A DNA stretch of 48,122 nt from Verrucomicrobiales bacterium (GTDB taxonomy: Bacteria; Verrucomicrobiota; Verrucomicrobiia; Limisphaerales; UBA9464): the NCBI GenBank assembly GCA_027483345.1, contig JAIXUV010000276.1, positions 1 through 48,122 on the forward strand. Direction: 5' to 3'. Of this stretch, positions 25,541 through 33,635 are shown piece by piece. Each line of letters begins with the position of its first letter. Within the stretch, counting starts at the first letter, position 1. The notes under the pieces are model-generated. The model was given only the letters and a program-made list of their open reading frames with translations. It was not told where the DNA came from and did no database searches. The position numbers and the translations under genes are program-made.

Positions 25541-26287
25541 TCAACGCGTCCTCGGATCCCGCAGGTGTTCCACATGCCCGTCGAGCATCAGGCGGTTGCG
25601 TCCGCCGACATGCGACGACATCCCACGGAGTTCCGACGGCACCGACGGAATCGTGGAGGGGAAGTAGGGATCGACCGCCAGCTCCACCGAGGAAGCTCCG
25701 TCCGGCCTTCCGGCGACCGGATTGTCCGCCCGGCGCAACGCCTCCACCGCGCCCTCCACGGAGCGGCCCCAGAAGTTGTCGTCGGGCACCGGGTCCTCGA
25801 ACCGGTCGAACCGCCACATCCAGTGGTGGGTCCGGGCTTCGCCCCCGTCGACGCCTTCGCGGACCGCGGTCTGGACCACGGCATCCACGCGCGCCAACGG
25901 CCCCGATTCCACGGCCGGGCATCGGAAGGCCCGGGCCTCGTCCAGATGCCCGCGCAACACCACCCAGGCCCAGCCCGACCGCGGATCGCTGGAGGAAGGC
26001 CATCCGCTCCAAGGACGGTAGCCGCCCGGCTGGTTCGTCTTGAGGTCGCGACGGTCCGGAAAGCGACCGGAGCCATCGCCGAGATAGAGCGCCCAGGCGA
26101 GTCCCTGCTGTCTCAGGTTGGAGAGGCAACGCGACTTGCCCGCTGCGCCCTTCGCACGGGCCAAGGTCGGGAGAAGCAACGAGGCCAGCACGGCGACGAT
26201 CGCGACGACGACCAGCAACTCGACGAGGGTGAAGGCCCGGACGAGTCGGCGCGTGGCGCGGCTATTCCGGCAGTGCGAAGGCGACAT
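25541..26287 (-). CDS. Prepilin-type N-terminal cleavage/methylation domain protein
   Basis: RAFTLVELLVVVAIVAVLASLLLPTLARAKGAAGKSRCLSNLRQQGLAWALYLGD, typical of PVC pseudopilins; C-terminal NRLMLDGHVEHLRD. Confidence 0.9.
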   Translation of the reverse strand: MSPSHCRNSRATRRLVRAFTLVELLVVVAIVAVLASLLLPTLARAKGAAGKSRCLSNLRQQGLAWALYLGDGSGRFPDRRDLKTNQPGGYRPWSGWPSSSDPRSGWAWVVLRGHLDEARAFRCPAVESGPLARVDAVVQTAVREGVDGGEARTHHWMWRFDRFEDPVPDDNFWGRSVEGAVEALRRADNPVAGRPDGASSVELAVDPYFPSTIPSVPSELRGMSSHVGGRNRLMLDGHVEHLRDPRTR

Positions 26288-28430
26288 AGGCGTCCCCGCT
26301 CTTCCGGCCGATCTTCCCGCCGCCGCAGGCGATCACGACGAACTGGCGTCCGCGAACCGAATAGGTCGCCGGCGTGGCGAATCCCGCCGCGGGCAACGGC
26401 GCCTTCCAGAGCTCCCGTCCGGTACGCCGGTCGAACGCCCGGATGTGCTCGTCCCGGCTCGCCGCGATGAACACCAGGCCGCCCGCCGTCACCACCGGGC
26501 CGCCGTAGTTCTCGGTGCCGGTCTTCGGCACGCCCCGCGCCGTCAGCTCCGGGTACTCGCCCAACGGCACACGCCAGCGGTACTCGCCGGTGTTCAGGTC
26601 GATCGCATTCAACGTGCCCCACGGCGGCTTCACCGCCGGATAGCCGTTCGTGTCCAACCAGCGGTTGTAGCCGGTGTGCGTGAACGGGATCCGGCCCAGC
26701 ACGTCCTCGCCTCCCAATTCCCCGCGGGACCCAGCCGGCGCAACGCCCGACGACGCCGGCGCCATGCCGAAGAGATGGTCCACCACCGAACCCCGCTGGG
26801 CCTCGGTCAGGAAGTCGAACGAAGGCATCACGCCCTTGCCGGTCTTCAGCAACGAGAGGATCTCCTCACGGGTACGCCGGGCGCCCACCCCGACCAGCGA
26901 CGGCACGTTCTGCGCGGCGTTCCCGACCCGGTCCACGCCATGGCAGGCGGCGCAGACCTGCGTGTAGATCGCAGCCCCGTCGGCCGGGGCACCGGCCTCC
27001 GGACGCTTCGTCTCCACCAACGTCAGGATCCACGGCATCTCGTTCGCGTTGACGTAGAGGATGCCGTCCGGATCGGCCGCGGCACCGCCCCATTCCGCGC
27101 CGCCGTCGAACCCGGGGAACACCACCGTCCCTTCCCGGCTCGGCGGCAGGTACGGCACGTGCGGACGGATCCGGACGAATTTCTCCATCACCGTCCTGTG
27201 CGACTCCGGCGAGATGTCCGTGATCTGCGTCGCGTCGAACACCTGTCGCGCGAAGGGTTCCGGCTTCTCCGGAACCGGCTGCGTCGGCCAGGCGGATTCC
27301 CCCGGGATGTCCGACGACGGCACCGGCACCTCGCGGATCGGGAACACGGGCTCGCCCGTGGCCCTGTCGAAGACGAACACGTGGCCCGACTTGGTCACCT
27401 GCGCCACCGCATCGATGCGGCGGCCGTCGCGACGGACCGTGATCAGGTTCGGCGGCGCCGGCAGGTCGCGGTCCCAGAGGTCGTGGTGGACGAGCTGGCG
27501 ATGCCACAGGCGACGTCCCGTGCGGGCGTCGAGGGCGATGAGGCAGTTCGCGAAAAGGTCCTGTCCGATGCGGTTGCCGCCCCAGAAATCGAACGCCGCG
27601 GAACCCGTCGGGCAGAACACGATCCCACGCACCTCGTCCAAGGAGAACCCGGCCCAGACGTTCGCGCCGCCGATGTGCTTCCACGCGTCCGGCGGCCACG
27701 TGTCGTACCCCTCCTCGCCGGGTTGCGGGATGGTGTTGAAGCGCCAAACCAGCTTCCCAGTGCGGACGTCGTAGGCGCGGATGTGGCCCGGTGCCGCGGG
27801 TGCCGGCCCTTCGCCGAGGCGCATCCCGAGGATCAGCAGGTCACCGAAGACCACGCCCGGTGTCGTGCACTGGAGCGCAAGCGACTTCACGTCGCGACCC
27901 AGGCCGTCCTTCAGGTCCACGACGCCGTCCTTGCCGAAGGACGGAACCGGCTTCCCTGTCACCGGATCCAACGCATGGAGGAAGTGGTCGTTGGCGTAGA
28001 ACAGCCGCCGCTCGGAGTCCGAGGCCCAATGGCTGAGTCCGCGGTTCACGCCGGCCTTGCTGAAGCCGGATGCAGCCGGATCGAACCGCCAACGCTCCCG
28101 GCCGGTGTCGGCGTCCAGCGCGAAGACCGCGAGGTCGGGCGTGGTGCCGAAAAGGACTCCTCCGACCACCAGCGGGTTGCACTGGATCTGCGAGCGGTTC
28201 GACGGATCCGCACCGCCCGCGCGATAGGTCCAGGCCACCTTGAGCCCCGAGACGTTGCGCGGCGTGATCTGGCGCAACGTCGAATGGTGGCTCACGCCCT
28301 TGTCCCCAAGATACGAGGGCCAATCCGCGTCCGGCCGCGCCGCGTGGACGACGACGCCGGCGGACAGGCCGAGGGCGAGACCCCAGCCGGCGAAGAGGCG
28401 CGAGGGACGCCTGGAGATGCGGGACGACAT
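26262..28430 (-). CDS. PQQ-dependent dehydrogenase-like beta-propeller protein with internal cytochrome c domain
   Basis: DWPSYLGDKGVSHHSTLRQITPRNVSGLKVAWTYRAGG, repeated propeller strands, IYTQVCAACHGVDRVGN, then further propeller sequence NAIDLNTGEYRWRVPLGEYPEL. ATG at 28430. Confidence 0.9.
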   Translation of the reverse strand: MSSRISRRPSRLFAGWGLALGLSAGVVVHAARPDADWPSYLGDKGVSHHSTLRQITPRNVSGLKVAWTYRAGGADPSNRSQIQCNPLVVGGVLFGTTPDLAVFALDADTGRERWRFDPAASGFSKAGVNRGLSHWASDSERRLFYANDHFLHALDPVTGKPVPSFGKDGVVDLKDGLGRDVKSLALQCTTPGVVFGDLLILGMRLGEGPAPAAPGHIRAYDVRTGKLVWRFNTIPQPGEEGYDTWPPDAWKHIGGANVWAGFSLDEVRGIVFCPTGSAAFDFWGGNRIGQDLFANCLIALDARTGRRLWHRQLVHHDLWDRDLPAPPNLITVRRDGRRIDAVAQVTKSGHVFVFDRATGEPVFPIREVPVPSSDIPGESAWPTQPVPEKPEPFARQVFDATQITDISPESHRTVMEKFVRIRPHVPYLPPSREGTVVFPGFDGGAEWGGAAADPDGILYVNANEMPWILTLVETKRPEAGAPADGAAIYTQVCAACHGVDRVGNAAQNVPSLVGVGARRTREEILSLLKTGKGVMPSFDFLTEAQRGSVVDHLFGMAPASSGVAPAGSRGELGGEDVLGRIPFTHTGYNRWLDTNGYPAVKPPWGTLNAIDLNTGEYRWRVPLGEYPELTARGVPKTGTENYGGPVVTAGGLVFIAASRDEHIRAFDRRTGRELWKAPLPAAGFATPATYSVRGRQFVVIACGGGKIGRKSGDAYVAFALPE

Positions 28431-28514
28431 GCCCGGATCGAAGTCGAATTCCCCCCGGAGACTCAATCGAACTCGTATGGAACCGCGACCGGGAACCGGG
28501 AGCCGAGGGGATCT

Positions 28515-28614
28515 GGCACGCGGAGGTACGGAGAGCGCGGAGGGGAACCGGCGGTTTCCCCTGCTCCTCAATTCGAGCATCCGTTCCTCCGCGGCCTCCG
28601 CGCCTCCGCGTGCC
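28515..28614. repeat. Intergenic inverted-repeat element (29-nt imperfect arms), same family as 16601-16702
   Basis: GGCACGCGGAGGTACGGAGAGCGCGGAGG versus reverse complement of CCTCCGCGGCCTCCGCGCCTCCGCGTGCC: 25/29; right arm matches the 16676 copy over CTCCGCGGCCTCCGCGCCTCCGCGTG. Confidence 0.8.
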
Positions 28615-28640
28615 CCTTCTCCCCGTCCCGCTCCACGCCC

Positions 28641-29900
28641 TCAGCGCTTCCCGACGCAGTAGAGGTGCCGGTCGGTGCGGAGATAGATCCGGCCGTCGGC
28701 CAGGGCCGGCGACGCCTGGACCTTCCCTTCCAGCGGATTCCGCGAAAGCACCCGGAACTGCGGGCCGGCTTCCAGGACCGTCGTCTCCGCGTTGTCGCCG
28801 AAGAAGTAGATCCGTCCCTCCGCGGACACGGGTGAGGCGCTGTGGTTGCCGCCGATCCGTTCCTGCCAGAGCACCTCGCCCGTCTTCGCGTCCAACGCCG
28901 TGGCCATGCCCGCGTCGGTCACCGAATAGATCCGGCCGCCCAGCGCGATCATCGAGGGCACCTTCGGATTTCCGCGCTTCTGCTCCCAGATCCGGCGCGT
29001 GTTGGAGACACCTTCGGCGGACGCCAACGGGAACGCCTGGATCGACTCACGACCGCCCCAACCGCCCGAGGCGAACACCAGGCCGTCCGCGACGATCGGC
29101 GACGGCACCTTGCCTTCGCCGGGGACGCGGTCGGTCCACAGCAGCTTGCCGGTCAGCAGGTCGAAGCCCTGCACCACGTCCCCCGCCTCGGTCACCACCA
29201 CCTTGCGGCCATCCACGGTGGCCAGCGTCGGCGAGCCATGGGAGATGCGCGAAAGACCCCGGCCGGTACGCCAACGTTCCCGTCCGGTCTTCGCGTCCAG
29301 CGCGACCACGTAGGAGCTTTCCCACGGCGTCTGCCATCCCACCTTCTTGTCCGCGCCGTCGCTGCTGCCGTCGCGGGCCATGACCAACAGGCCGTCCACG
29401 AGGATCGGCGAGGAACCCAGGCCGTGCTGGCTGTAGAACTCCATCGCGCGGTTCGTCCACACCGCGCGTCCCTGGAAGTCGAGCGCCACGGCGCTGCCGT
29501 CGCCGAAAACGGCGTACACCCGCTTTCCGTCGGTGCACGGCGACGGCGTCGCGTAGGAGTTGCGGCCCTCCTTGCGGCGCGGCACCTGCTGGAAGACCTC
29601 ACGGTCCCAAAGCACCTTCCCCGACTTCGCGTCGAGTGCGAGCACATGGCACGCCGTGCCGGAGGCGGTCGTCGTGGTCACGAACACCCGCTTGCCCCAC
29701 ACCGCCGGCGTGGACCATCCCTCGCCCGGGATCTCCGTCTTCCAGAGCACGCCGTTCGTGGCGTTCCAGGACACCGGGAAACCACGGTCCTTGGACACGC
29801 CCTGGTGGTCGGGTCCGCGGAACTCGGGCCAGTTGGCGGCTTCCGCGGCGAGGGCGCCGACCAGGCCAAGGACGGAAAGGAGGCGAAGCGACGGGTGCAT
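28641..29900 (-). CDS. Secreted PQQ-binding-like beta-propeller protein
   Basis: Signal-like MHPSLRLLSVLGLVGALAAEA, NWPEFRGPDHQGVS, repeated propeller motifs (ALDAKSGKVLWDRE, ALDAKTGRERWRT, ALDAKTGEVLWQER). ATG at 29900. Confidence 0.9.
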   Translation of the reverse strand: MHPSLRLLSVLGLVGALAAEAANWPEFRGPDHQGVSKDRGFPVSWNATNGVLWKTEIPGEGWSTPAVWGKRVFVTTTTASGTACHVLALDAKSGKVLWDREVFQQVPRRKEGRNSYATPSPCTDGKRVYAVFGDGSAVALDFQGRAVWTNRAMEFYSQHGLGSSPILVDGLLVMARDGSSDGADKKVGWQTPWESSYVVALDAKTGRERWRTGRGLSRISHGSPTLATVDGRKVVVTEAGDVVQGFDLLTGKLLWTDRVPGEGKVPSPIVADGLVFASGGWGGRESIQAFPLASAEGVSNTRRIWEQKRGNPKVPSMIALGGRIYSVTDAGMATALDAKTGEVLWQERIGGNHSASPVSAEGRIYFFGDNAETTVLEAGPQFRVLSRNPLEGKVQASPALADGRIYLRTDRHLYCVGKR

Positions 29901-29960
29901 GCCCCTTCCATGCCCGAAGCCGGCGACACGCGACAGCCGCAAAAGTGCGGAGCAGATGGG

Positions 29961-30072: not shown

Positions 30073-31839
30073 CTACTGCGGGTCGCTCAGCGTCCGCAGG
30101 AACGCGACGAGGGCCTGCTGGTCCGCCAAGTCGAGTCCCACGCCGCCGTCCGGGTGCTTGGCGAGGTTCGGGTCGAGGTTCGATGCGCGCTTCACGCCGC
30201 TGCAGTAGTGCGCCACCGCTTCTTCGAGTGTCGCGAACCGCCCGTCGTGCATGTACGGCGCCGTCTTCGCCACGTTCCGCAGCGACGGCGTCCGGAACCG
30301 CCCACGGTCGGCCCCGTTTCCCGTCACCCCTGCGCGTCCCTCGTCGCTCCCCTTCCCTTCCGCATCGAGCCCGTTGTTGTGGAAGGCCGAGTCGGTGAAC
30401 AGCGGCCCGCCGTGGCAGTGGAAGCAATCCGCGCCGTATTGTCCGCGGCGCGGATCGTGTTCGGTGAAGAAGAGCTCGAATCCCCGCTGCTCCAATGCGG
30501 TGAAGCCGTCGGCGCCCCGAGCCACTCGGTCGAACTTCGAGTCGCCGGAAACCTGCACCAACAGGAACTGCTCCAACGCCCGGGCCAAACGGTCCACCGT
30601 CACTCCACCCGGACCGAACGCGGCCCCGAAGGACGTCCCGTATCCGGCCTCGGTCAGCTTGCGCACGACGTTGGTCGGCGTCTCGTGCATCTCCACCGGA
30701 TTCCCGAGCGGCATCAGGACCTGCTCACGGAGGGACTTCGCCCGGCCGTCCCAGAAGTACGGACCCTGCCATGCGAGGTTCGCGAGCGGCATCGCGTTGC
30801 GGTCGCCCTCGACGCCTTCCGCCCCGCGGCTGAACCGACGTCCGGCATCCACGAACGCGGCCGCACCATCATGACAGGACGCACAGCTCTGGCTTCCGTT
30901 GACCGAGAGCAGCGGTTCCTGGAACAGCCGATGTCCCAGCTCCACCCCTTCCACGGTCAGCGGATTGTCCCGCGGCAACGCGGGGATCGTGAAGCCGGCA
31001 GGCACCTGGAACCGCCACGGGGTGGTTCCGGAGCCCGATGACGCCGCGGCTTTCGAAGCGGTGACGGGAAGCGCAGCCGGAAGCGACGCCACCTGCGGCA
31101 TCTCGACCCGGAAGGCCCGCGCCACGGCGGCGGCGAGGTCGGCGGCGAGGCGGTCCCCGTTGCGCGAATGGCTCGAGGATCCGAGCCGGGCCGCAGGAAC
31201 CTCGAGGAGCATCCGTCCAACATCCAATACCCACACGCTGGCATCGCCCGGTCTGCGGCTGAGCGGCAGTTCCACCGGCATCTCCAGGGCGGCACCGGCC
31301 AAATGGTAGGAGAACCCGCCCTCGACGCCGGCCCCGTCTCGGCCGTTGCCCTCGAGGGCGAGGAAGACGAAGCCGCCAAGCCATCCCCAATGGAGACCGT
31401 TCACCAGCGGATTGAGGGGATCGTCGGGGGCCAACGCATCCACGGCGATGCGGTCCAGTTCCGGGCGGAGTCCGACCCGGAACCGGACCGCGCGGACCTT
31501 CTCCACGGGGAGGTCCTTCAGGACGAAGGCCTCGCGGCCCCGGCCGATGCCGATGTAGGCGGCGCGGGTTCCCGAAGGCCGCTCCGAGCCGTCCTGCAGC
31601 ACGAACCGGAAGTCCGACAGCAGGAAGTCCAACCGCCCCACCGTGATGCGTTCTCCGACGGCGTTGGTGAGGACGGTGTCGTCGAGCTTCAGCGGAGCAT
31701 TCCCAGACACCGCCTGGACACGGACCGCCAGTTCCTCCGCCTGCACGAGGGGCGCGACGCCACCCGCGAGCGCGAGGAGCAGCCCGGTCCAGGAAAGATC
31801 CCGGAGGTGTCGGACGATGGATTGGAAGATCCCGGGCAT
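30073..31839 (-). CDS. Fusion: MbnP-like domain plus CCP/MauG (MbnH-like) di-heme peroxidase domain
   Basis: Signal-like LLALAGGVAPLVQAEE; MbnP-like APLKLDDTVLTNAVGERITVGRLDFLLSDFRFVLQDGS...NPLVNGLHWGWLGGFVFLALEGNG; C-terminal ELGHRLFQEPLLSVNGSQSCASCHDGAAAFVDAGRRFS...GADCFHCHGGPLFTDSAFHNNGLD...FRTPSLRNVAKTAPYMHDGRFATLEEAVAHY with two CxxCH. ATG at 31839; the track ORF start at 32370 overlaps the YHYH gene. Confidence 0.88.
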   Translation of the reverse strand: MPGIFQSIVRHLRDLSWTGLLLALAGGVAPLVQAEELAVRVQAVSGNAPLKLDDTVLTNAVGERITVGRLDFLLSDFRFVLQDGSERPSGTRAAYIGIGRGREAFVLKDLPVEKVRAVRFRVGLRPELDRIAVDALAPDDPLNPLVNGLHWGWLGGFVFLALEGNGRDGAGVEGGFSYHLAGAALEMPVELPLSRRPGDASVWVLDVGRMLLEVPAARLGSSSHSRNGDRLAADLAAAVARAFRVEMPQVASLPAALPVTASKAAASSGSGTTPWRFQVPAGFTIPALPRDNPLTVEGVELGHRLFQEPLLSVNGSQSCASCHDGAAAFVDAGRRFSRGAEGVEGDRNAMPLANLAWQGPYFWDGRAKSLREQVLMPLGNPVEMHETPTNVVRKLTEAGYGTSFGAAFGPGGVTVDRLARALEQFLLVQVSGDSKFDRVARGADGFTALEQRGFELFFTEHDPRRGQYGADCFHCHGGPLFTDSAFHNNGLDAEGKGSDEGRAGVTGNGADRGRFRTPSLRNVAKTAPYMHDGRFATLEEAVAHYCSGVKRASNLDPNLAKHPDGGVGLDLADQQALVAFLRTLSDPQ

Positions 31840-31847
31840 TGGAGGGA

Positions 31848-33635
31848 TCAGCGCACGGTGAATCCGCCGGCCAAGGTGAAGGACACCGTGCCCATGTTGG
31901 GCGGTCCGGGGAACTCCACGGCGACGTCGAGTGCGCCCGGGGTGGCGGTGGCGGGGATGACGAGGGTGGCGGTGACCGTGGTGTTGCTGGCCCGACGGAG
32001 GTTCGTCCCGGACAAGGTTCCCACGCGGACCGCGGTCGGGACCATGTTGGCCGGTGGAGCCATTCCGCCCAGCGTCAGCGTGAGCGTGACCGTGGTCCCG
32101 CGATCGCCAATGGAGGGGGCCACGGAAGTGAGGGGCGGATTGGCGCCGCCACCGCCGTTGTTGCCGCCGCCGCCCGTGGCGGTCCCGGTGGCCGGATCGT
32201 AGGCGGCCAGCGCGGTGCGGCGGACCCGGTAGACCGTCTGGGCCGCCTCGCCGACGACGGTCTGCGAGAGCCGGCCTTCGGCGGCGAGGACCCCTGTGGC
32301 ATTCGTGGACCAGTTCGAGAGGTTGGTCGACGACTCGACCTGGTAGGAGCCGCCTTCCGCTGCGTTCCAAACCAGCGTCACGGAACCACCCGTGACGGCG
32401 GGCTTAGAGAGTGTCACCGGTTGGTCCGGCCCTCCGACGACCCGGGTGGTCACCGTCTCGTTGATGGCGGTGACGGCGCCGCCGGCAGGCGTTCCGTGGA
32501 AGGCCCGTCCGATGTTGTAGGGGAACACCGGCGTTCCGTCCGCGGCGATGGAGACGAAGTAGGCGTAGGTGCCATCCGGGAACTCCGGCGTGACGCACCA
32601 GCGTCCGTTGTCCTCGTCGAGGTCGTAGTCGACACCGGCGACGAAGGGTTGGCCGGTGGAAGGGTCCACGAGGTCGCCGAGGAAGGCGTTGTCCTCCATG
32701 TAGCGTCCGAGCGGGTACTGGGCCGAAACGGCGGGACCGGTCTGGTTGCCGGCGGTGCCGTAGAGGCGACGGGCCCAGGACGGGATGGCGGTCCGGCCGG
32801 CGGAGGTCAGGTTGTCGGTGCCACGCTGGCCGTTGCGAAGCTGATATCCGGAAAGCATCCGGCGCAGTCCCGACGTGGCGTTGGTGGCGTTGGAATAGCC
32901 GTAGGGACCGTAAATCGGGAAGCCGTCCTGTACCCAGCCGAGGATCGGCGAGTGGCGGGCCACCGGGGCCGACGACTCGCGGTAGGTCCGGGTTGTCGCG
33001 TCGAAGTCGACATGGTCGCCGAGGCGGTGGCGCAGGGCGATCGGGCTGGCGTGGTAGTGGTAGGTGCCGGTGTTTTCCTGATGGGCGAAGGCGGGATCGA
33101 AGGTGGCGCCCTCGTTCACGTAGGCTTCGCGGTTCCAGAATCCCGTTCCATTGCCCTCGGCCGTGCCGTTCCAGGAGAAGGCGTCGCGGCTGTCGAACAT
33201 CGCCACGCCGTCCACGAAGATCCCCACCGAGCCGAGTCCGGTGAGCGCGGGAGTCGACGGCACCGCGGGTGTGCGAGGGATCCGATAGAGGGTCTTCCGG
33301 TTAGTCGGGAGGTTGGGGAAGTTGCCGTTGAGCCACGGGCCCATGACATGGCCGCCCAAACCGGTGGTCCGAACATAGACCCAGTCGGTCGAGACCGAGA
33401 TCTCCTGAACGCCGGCGTAGGCGGGCGCCGTCTGGGTCTGCGAACCGTTGGACCAGGTGGCCTTGGCGGTTCCGGACGACTGTTCGGCAGGGGTCTGGTA
33501 GATCCGTGCGTAGTGGGAGGAGGCGACGGCATCCCAGGAGTTCGTCCGGGGATCGGCGGCGAGCACCGCGGACGGCAGCAGCAGCAGCGGCGAGACGGCC
33601 AGCGGCGCGGTCAGGGACAGGAACAGGGGCTTCAT
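31848..33635 (-). CDS. YHYH-domain secreted protein
   Basis: Signal MKPLFLSLTAPLAVSPLLLLPSAVLA; TGTYHYHASPIALRHRLGDHVDFD...SPILGWVQDGFPIYGPYGYS; C-terminal IPT/Ig-like region. Stop lies 8 nt before the fusion gene start. Confidence 0.88.
   Translation of the reverse strand: MKPLFLSLTAPLAVSPLLLLPSAVLAADPRTNSWDAVASSHYARIYQTPAEQSSGTAKATWSNGSQTQTAPAYAGVQEISVSTDWVYVRTTGLGGHVMGPWLNGNFPNLPTNRKTLYRIPRTPAVPSTPALTGLGSVGIFVDGVAMFDSRDAFSWNGTAEGNGTGFWNREAYVNEGATFDPAFAHQENTGTYHYHASPIALRHRLGDHVDFDATTRTYRESSAPVARHSPILGWVQDGFPIYGPYGYSNATNATSGLRRMLSGYQLRNGQRGTDNLTSAGRTAIPSWARRLYGTAGNQTGPAVSAQYPLGRYMEDNAFLGDLVDPSTGQPFVAGVDYDLDEDNGRWCVTPEFPDGTYAYFVSIAADGTPVFPYNIGRAFHGTPAGGAVTAINETVTTRVVGGPDQPVTLSKPAVTGGSVTLVWNAAEGGSYQVESSTNLSNWSTNATGVLAAEGRLSQTVVGEAAQTVYRVRRTALAAYDPATGTATGGGGNNGGGGANPPLTSVAPSIGDRGTTVTLTLTLGGMAPPANMVPTAVRVGTLSGTNLRRASNTTVTATLVIPATATPGALDVAVEFPGPPNMGTVSFTLAGGFTVR

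Follow-up and report, generated by a model that had tools for sequence, protein, structure and literature searches.

A 48,122-nucleotide stretch of contig JAIXUV010000276.1 from a Verrucomicrobiales bacterium (the window) carries a gene in which a domain homologous to MbnP is joined, in one chain, to a di-heme domain homologous to MbnH and MauG. The gene (31839..30073, minus strand, as are all its parts) is a single unbroken open reading frame (ORF) of 588 amino acids, delimited by the frame itself and by Pfam and NCBIfam matches. Its N-terminus (MPGIFQSIVRHLRDLSWTGLLLALAGGVAPLVQA/EE; residues 1–34, 31738..31839) resembles a Sec signal upon inspection by eye, and the predicted local distance difference test (pLDDT) score is low at residues 1–8 and 11–27. 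The predicted MbnP-type copper domain (approximately residues 34–250, 31090..31740), assigned from a Pfam match, invariant residues, and a fold match to the MbnP structure 7L6G, is connected by an interdomain linker (approximately residues 251–278, 31006..31089; pLDDT low around 258–264) to the MauG/MbnH-type di-heme domain (30073..31005), assigned from sequence and fold matches. W151 and W153 form a WxW motif within LHWGWLGG, and the enzyme half contains two heme motifs, CASCH (319–323) and CFHCH (472–476). The initial annotation had described the uninterrupted frame with its signal-like start and had placed these residues and motifs correctly.

Pfam searches bear out the identities proposed earlier for the two halves. 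The MbnP model (PF20243) scored 64.2 bits over residues 36–184 (cut-off 27; E = 1.9e-17), the CCP_MauG model (PF03150) matched residues 297–443 with 163.2 bits against 25.6 (E = 8.5e-48), and both models matched 52 of 52 aligned relatives. The top NCBIfam match, at E = 6.8e-60, was to TIGR04039, the model for di-heme enzymes of the MbnH family. By its two CxxCH motifs and its CCP_MauG score, the enzyme half belongs to the MauG/bacterial cytochrome c peroxidase (bCcP) superfamily. An AlphaFold model of the whole fusion, based on 52 sequences, had a pLDDT of 85.5 and a predicted template modeling (pTM) score of 0.85, the latter only suggesting a defined domain arrangement. The best fold match of this model in the PDB was MbnH (6E1C, E = 3.9e-24), with MauG next, and the enzyme half also matched 6E1C by sequence (E = 4.5e-48). 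When modeled alone, the N-terminal domain reached a pLDDT of 91.6. Foldseek returned MbnP 7L6G as the only significant match to this domain (best chain, E = 5e-8; all six chains ≤4e-7); the first match outside 7L6G was unrelated (E = 0.026). A profile built from both fused and unfused MbnP domains also found 7L6G (E = 1.1e-5), aligning the WxW motif and one His.

The fusion was found in about 90 related loci, nearly all from Verrucomicrobiota, which rules out an assembly chimera or read-through and leaves no need to invoke a frameshift, and it was seen in about 75 loci of independent assemblies. The covalent joining of the two domains is thus real, but the initial annotation had treated it as an isolated oddity, and it is instead a form conserved throughout the phylum, whose partner genes are conserved too. 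PF20243 occurred in 22 of 388 sampled Verrucomicrobiota genomes, with 25 of the 27 matches in fusion-sized frames (467–814 amino acids), and in 78 of 297 Bacteroidota genomes, in frames of at most 517 amino acids, fusion being judged by frame length alone in the survey genomes beyond the fetched loci. Among kin of the source genome, 22 of 39 genomes had a match. All 20 Bacteroidota loci inspected have separate adjacent genes, MbnP followed by a MauG-like gene. Planctomycetota were ruled out as a second home of the fusion, as the single genome with a match (1/294) was the one that had supplied the query locus; L079, a fusion on a contig labeled Planctomycetaceae, has a long branch and may reflect horizontal transfer or a misbinned contig.

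In a tree of enzyme domains (119 rows), a single branch sets the 91 fused rows apart from the others (support 92/96; 90% of bootstrap trees), and nearest to them are the separate pairs of loci L070, L077, and L078. Because the fused rows sit beyond one branch and the unfused pairs are adjacent and in the same order, the fusion probably arose once, and a single event joining an adjacent MbnP/MauG-like pair is the simplest account. Two of the loci with separate genes, L070 and L078 (Bacteroidia, Ignavibacteriota), each carry two MbnP/MauG-like pairs in tandem, one of which is strongly diverged. A lone MbnP-type frame of 327 amino acids (L113; G431 contig C22, 673852–674397) was seen in a Verrucomicrobiaceae genome with two fusions; it lies about 8 kb from one of these, and the 3.5 kb examined around it held no enzyme gene.

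Across the 75 fused sequences that were compared, W151, W153, H179, H224, both CxxCH motifs, W357, and W363 are invariant. Y545 is kept in all 74 sequences that reach its position, and Tyr occupies that position in 28 of 28 unfused relatives. In the alignment to MauG, W363 corresponds to the inter-heme Trp (W93); since Y545 aligns with the axial Tyr (Y294), the second heme is, as judged from this alignment, of the MauG/MbnH type, with axial Tyr instead of the peroxidase Met. W357 is common to the fusion and MbnH and is Met in the Nitrosomonas peroxidase. A plain cytochrome c peroxidase was rejected as the primary reading, the axial-ligand position being Tyr and not Met. A subtler possibility is that the di-heme half is a peroxidase to which the MbnP half, as a fixed copper electron-transfer or sensing domain, feeds electrons, with no Trp modification. 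Bacterial di-heme peroxidases are indeed near the enzyme half in fold and sequence, and fusions of redox domains with their electron donors are common. We nevertheless consider this improbable, because an invariant Tyr, of the kind seen in MauG and MbnH, stands at the axial position where peroxidases have Met, and the WxW Trp, which is modified in known MbnP, is invariant.

In work published in PNAS in 2021, MbnP reportedly holds Cu(I) through one His and one Met, with a kynurenine derived from the first Trp of WxW close by. In CorA and MopE, the copper site consists of a kynurenine and two His (PMC3912023, PMC3423442). In the fused family, H179 is aligned with a His of 7L6G, and H224, usually within THS, stands at a position near which Met is found in 17 of 24 unfused MbnPs; THS also occurs in the nearest unfused relatives (L070, L077, and L078). 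Because the invariant H224 stands where most Bacteroidota MbnPs have Met, the Met-to-His change probably yields a Kyn/His/His copper site resembling that of CorA. The earlier proposal of a copper protein of the MbnP kind is partly supported: the candidate ligands are invariant, but the site is predicted to differ, with His for Met. Because the WxW Trp, the MauG/MbnH-type axial Tyr, and these candidate ligands are all invariant, the inference that we consider best is a Trp-modified copper protein that matures itself.

Immediately upstream, on the same strand, a gene for a secreted YHYH-family (PF14240) protein of 595 amino acids (31848..33635) ends 8 bp from the fusion. It is the only YHYH match in the source genome and adjoins that genome's only MbnP. 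In 28 fetched loci, YHYH ends at most 350 bp from the N-terminal domain, on the same strand, and YHYH lies within about 3 kb of MbnP in 11 of 22 MbnP-bearing kin genomes (source genome included), the chance expectation being, by a rough estimate, at most about 0.5% per genome. In some lineages, the YHYH proteins encoded beside the fusion have added domains, such as a sulfatase domain (L046:2581–5856) or cadherin-like domains (L034:803–5905).

In 11 loci, mostly from Verrucomicrobiaceae, a large galactose-oxidase-like gene comes next after the fusion, in place of YHYH. Its catalytic domain matched galactose oxidase in the PDB with E = 1.3e-87, and the proteins carry the motifs HDMFC (8/9), RWY (9/9), RNYHS (9/9), and a THS-type motif (5/9 by strict pattern), which we take to be the copper and Cys–Tyr cofactor residues of galactose oxidase. 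The oxidase-like gene of locus L013 (7674–13634) overlaps the stop of the fusion by 4 bases and encodes about 2000 amino acids comprising a galactose-oxidase-like copper radical oxidase, PKD/Ig-type, c-type heme (RoxA/CCP-like), and PA14 domains; loci L012, L028, L033, L045, L059, L073, and L080 resemble it, with the oxidase directly behind the fusion. Neither YHYH nor the oxidase was found near the Bacteroidota MbnP/MauG-like pairs in the 20 loci inspected. Downstream of the fusion, on the same strand of the window (26262–29942, minus), are two pyrroloquinoline quinone (PQQ)-type β-propeller genes, one with a c-type cytochrome domain; they were not counted among the conserved parts, strong full-length homologous neighbors otherwise occurring only in the near-identical L002. 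As the source genome (95% complete) gave no match to mbnB (TIGR04159), this is not a methanobactin system, in agreement with the initial annotation, which had seen no methanobactin cluster.

The linkage of the fusion to its neighbors can be read in several ways. One is that the di-heme domain has YHYH (or the cofactor residues of the oxidase) as its real substrate, MbnP being only a docking or copper-presenting module. The tight linkage to YHYH or the oxidase fits this idea, as do the several aromatic residues and histidines that are invariant in YHYH, but unfused pairs of the ancestral type keep WxW with neither gene nearby, and we rate it the least probable of the readings considered. It is somewhat easier to imagine, yet still unlikely, that the tethered Trp-modified pair serves copper scavenging or homeostasis in general and has no functional tie to its neighbors: many fusion loci have neither YHYH nor the oxidase in the DNA examined, and MbnPH-like genes occur in varied copper-homeostasis operons (PMC9426467), but the adjoining of the sole YHYH and sole MbnP of the source genome, and an adjacency frequency among kin genomes far above chance, argue against it.

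The account that we favor, with reasonable though limited confidence, is that of a single-chain MbnP–MbnH, a kynurenine copper protein that matures itself and provides a secreted partner with copper. We infer the following course for Trp oxidation (in cis or, from one copy to another, in trans), for copper binding and its ligands, and for delivery of the metal. The fusion would be exported and its C-terminal half loaded with two c-type hemes, after which peroxide or O2 would activate the di-heme domain. This domain would then oxidize W151, the first WxW Trp of the tethered MbnP domain, to kynurenine, and Kyn151, H179, and H224 would bind one copper ion. The resulting copper protein would serve the neighboring secreted client, YHYH here and, in a sister lineage, the copper radical oxidase. 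Strong homology points to the maturation steps; the client is suggested by gene linkage, most strongly where it belongs to a bona fide copper enzyme family. In a more specific form, which we advance only tentatively, a self-maturing copper chaperone with a Kyn/bis-His site would load its partner, and YHYH proteins would be copper proteins interchangeable with the oxidase in this niche.

Several observations weigh against the favored account. The fusion missed the equivalog cut-off of the MbnH model TIGR04039 (202.9 versus 362.85 bits), and its match to the MbnP_like_WxW equivalog TIGR04052 was weak (22.5 bits versus a cut-off of 140). The fused family has no invariant Met that would correspond to the Met ligand reported for MbnP. 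No solved relative of YHYH was found, and that family has no known function. Finally, in about half of the related loci no YHYH or oxidase gene adjoins the fusion, and the link to a client is therefore confined to a part of them.

The fusion is a variant form of the known MbnP/MbnH pair, conserved phylum-wide in Verrucomicrobiota. It shares both folds, WxW, the conserved His, two CxxCH motifs, and the axial Tyr with the pair from Methylosinus trichosporium OB3b (7L6G, 6E1C; TIGR04052/TIGR04039), but it is one chain, has no methanobactin genes, has YHYH or a copper radical oxidase as partner genes, and carries H224 where most Bacteroidota relatives carry Met. With MauG it has in common the di-heme fold, the inter-heme Trp, and the axial Tyr, whereas its substrate is presumably its own N-terminal domain and that of MauG is methylamine dehydrogenase. 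MopE/CorA with SACCP/CorB (PMC3912023, PMC3423442) likewise combine a site of kynurenine and two His, predicted for the fusion, with a MauG-like cytochrome partner, but as two genes, and no match to them was found here. The Bacteroidota MbnP and MauG-like pairs have homologous domains in the same order but are separate genes, with a mostly Met-type site and no YHYH or oxidase nearby. We found no paper on an MbnP–MbnH fusion in the open-access literature, and an earlier mention is possible.

The chemistry of MbnH and MbnP has so far been studied as a two-protein reaction. The fusion fixes the stoichiometry of enzyme and substrate. It may also present the reacting complex as a single chain, from which structural work on Trp oxidation by a di-heme center would benefit. 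Its neighbors, the copper radical oxidase and YHYH, provide a concrete, testable hypothesis about the client, and if the fusion does act as a copper chaperone for them, the widespread YHYH family would be copper proteins.
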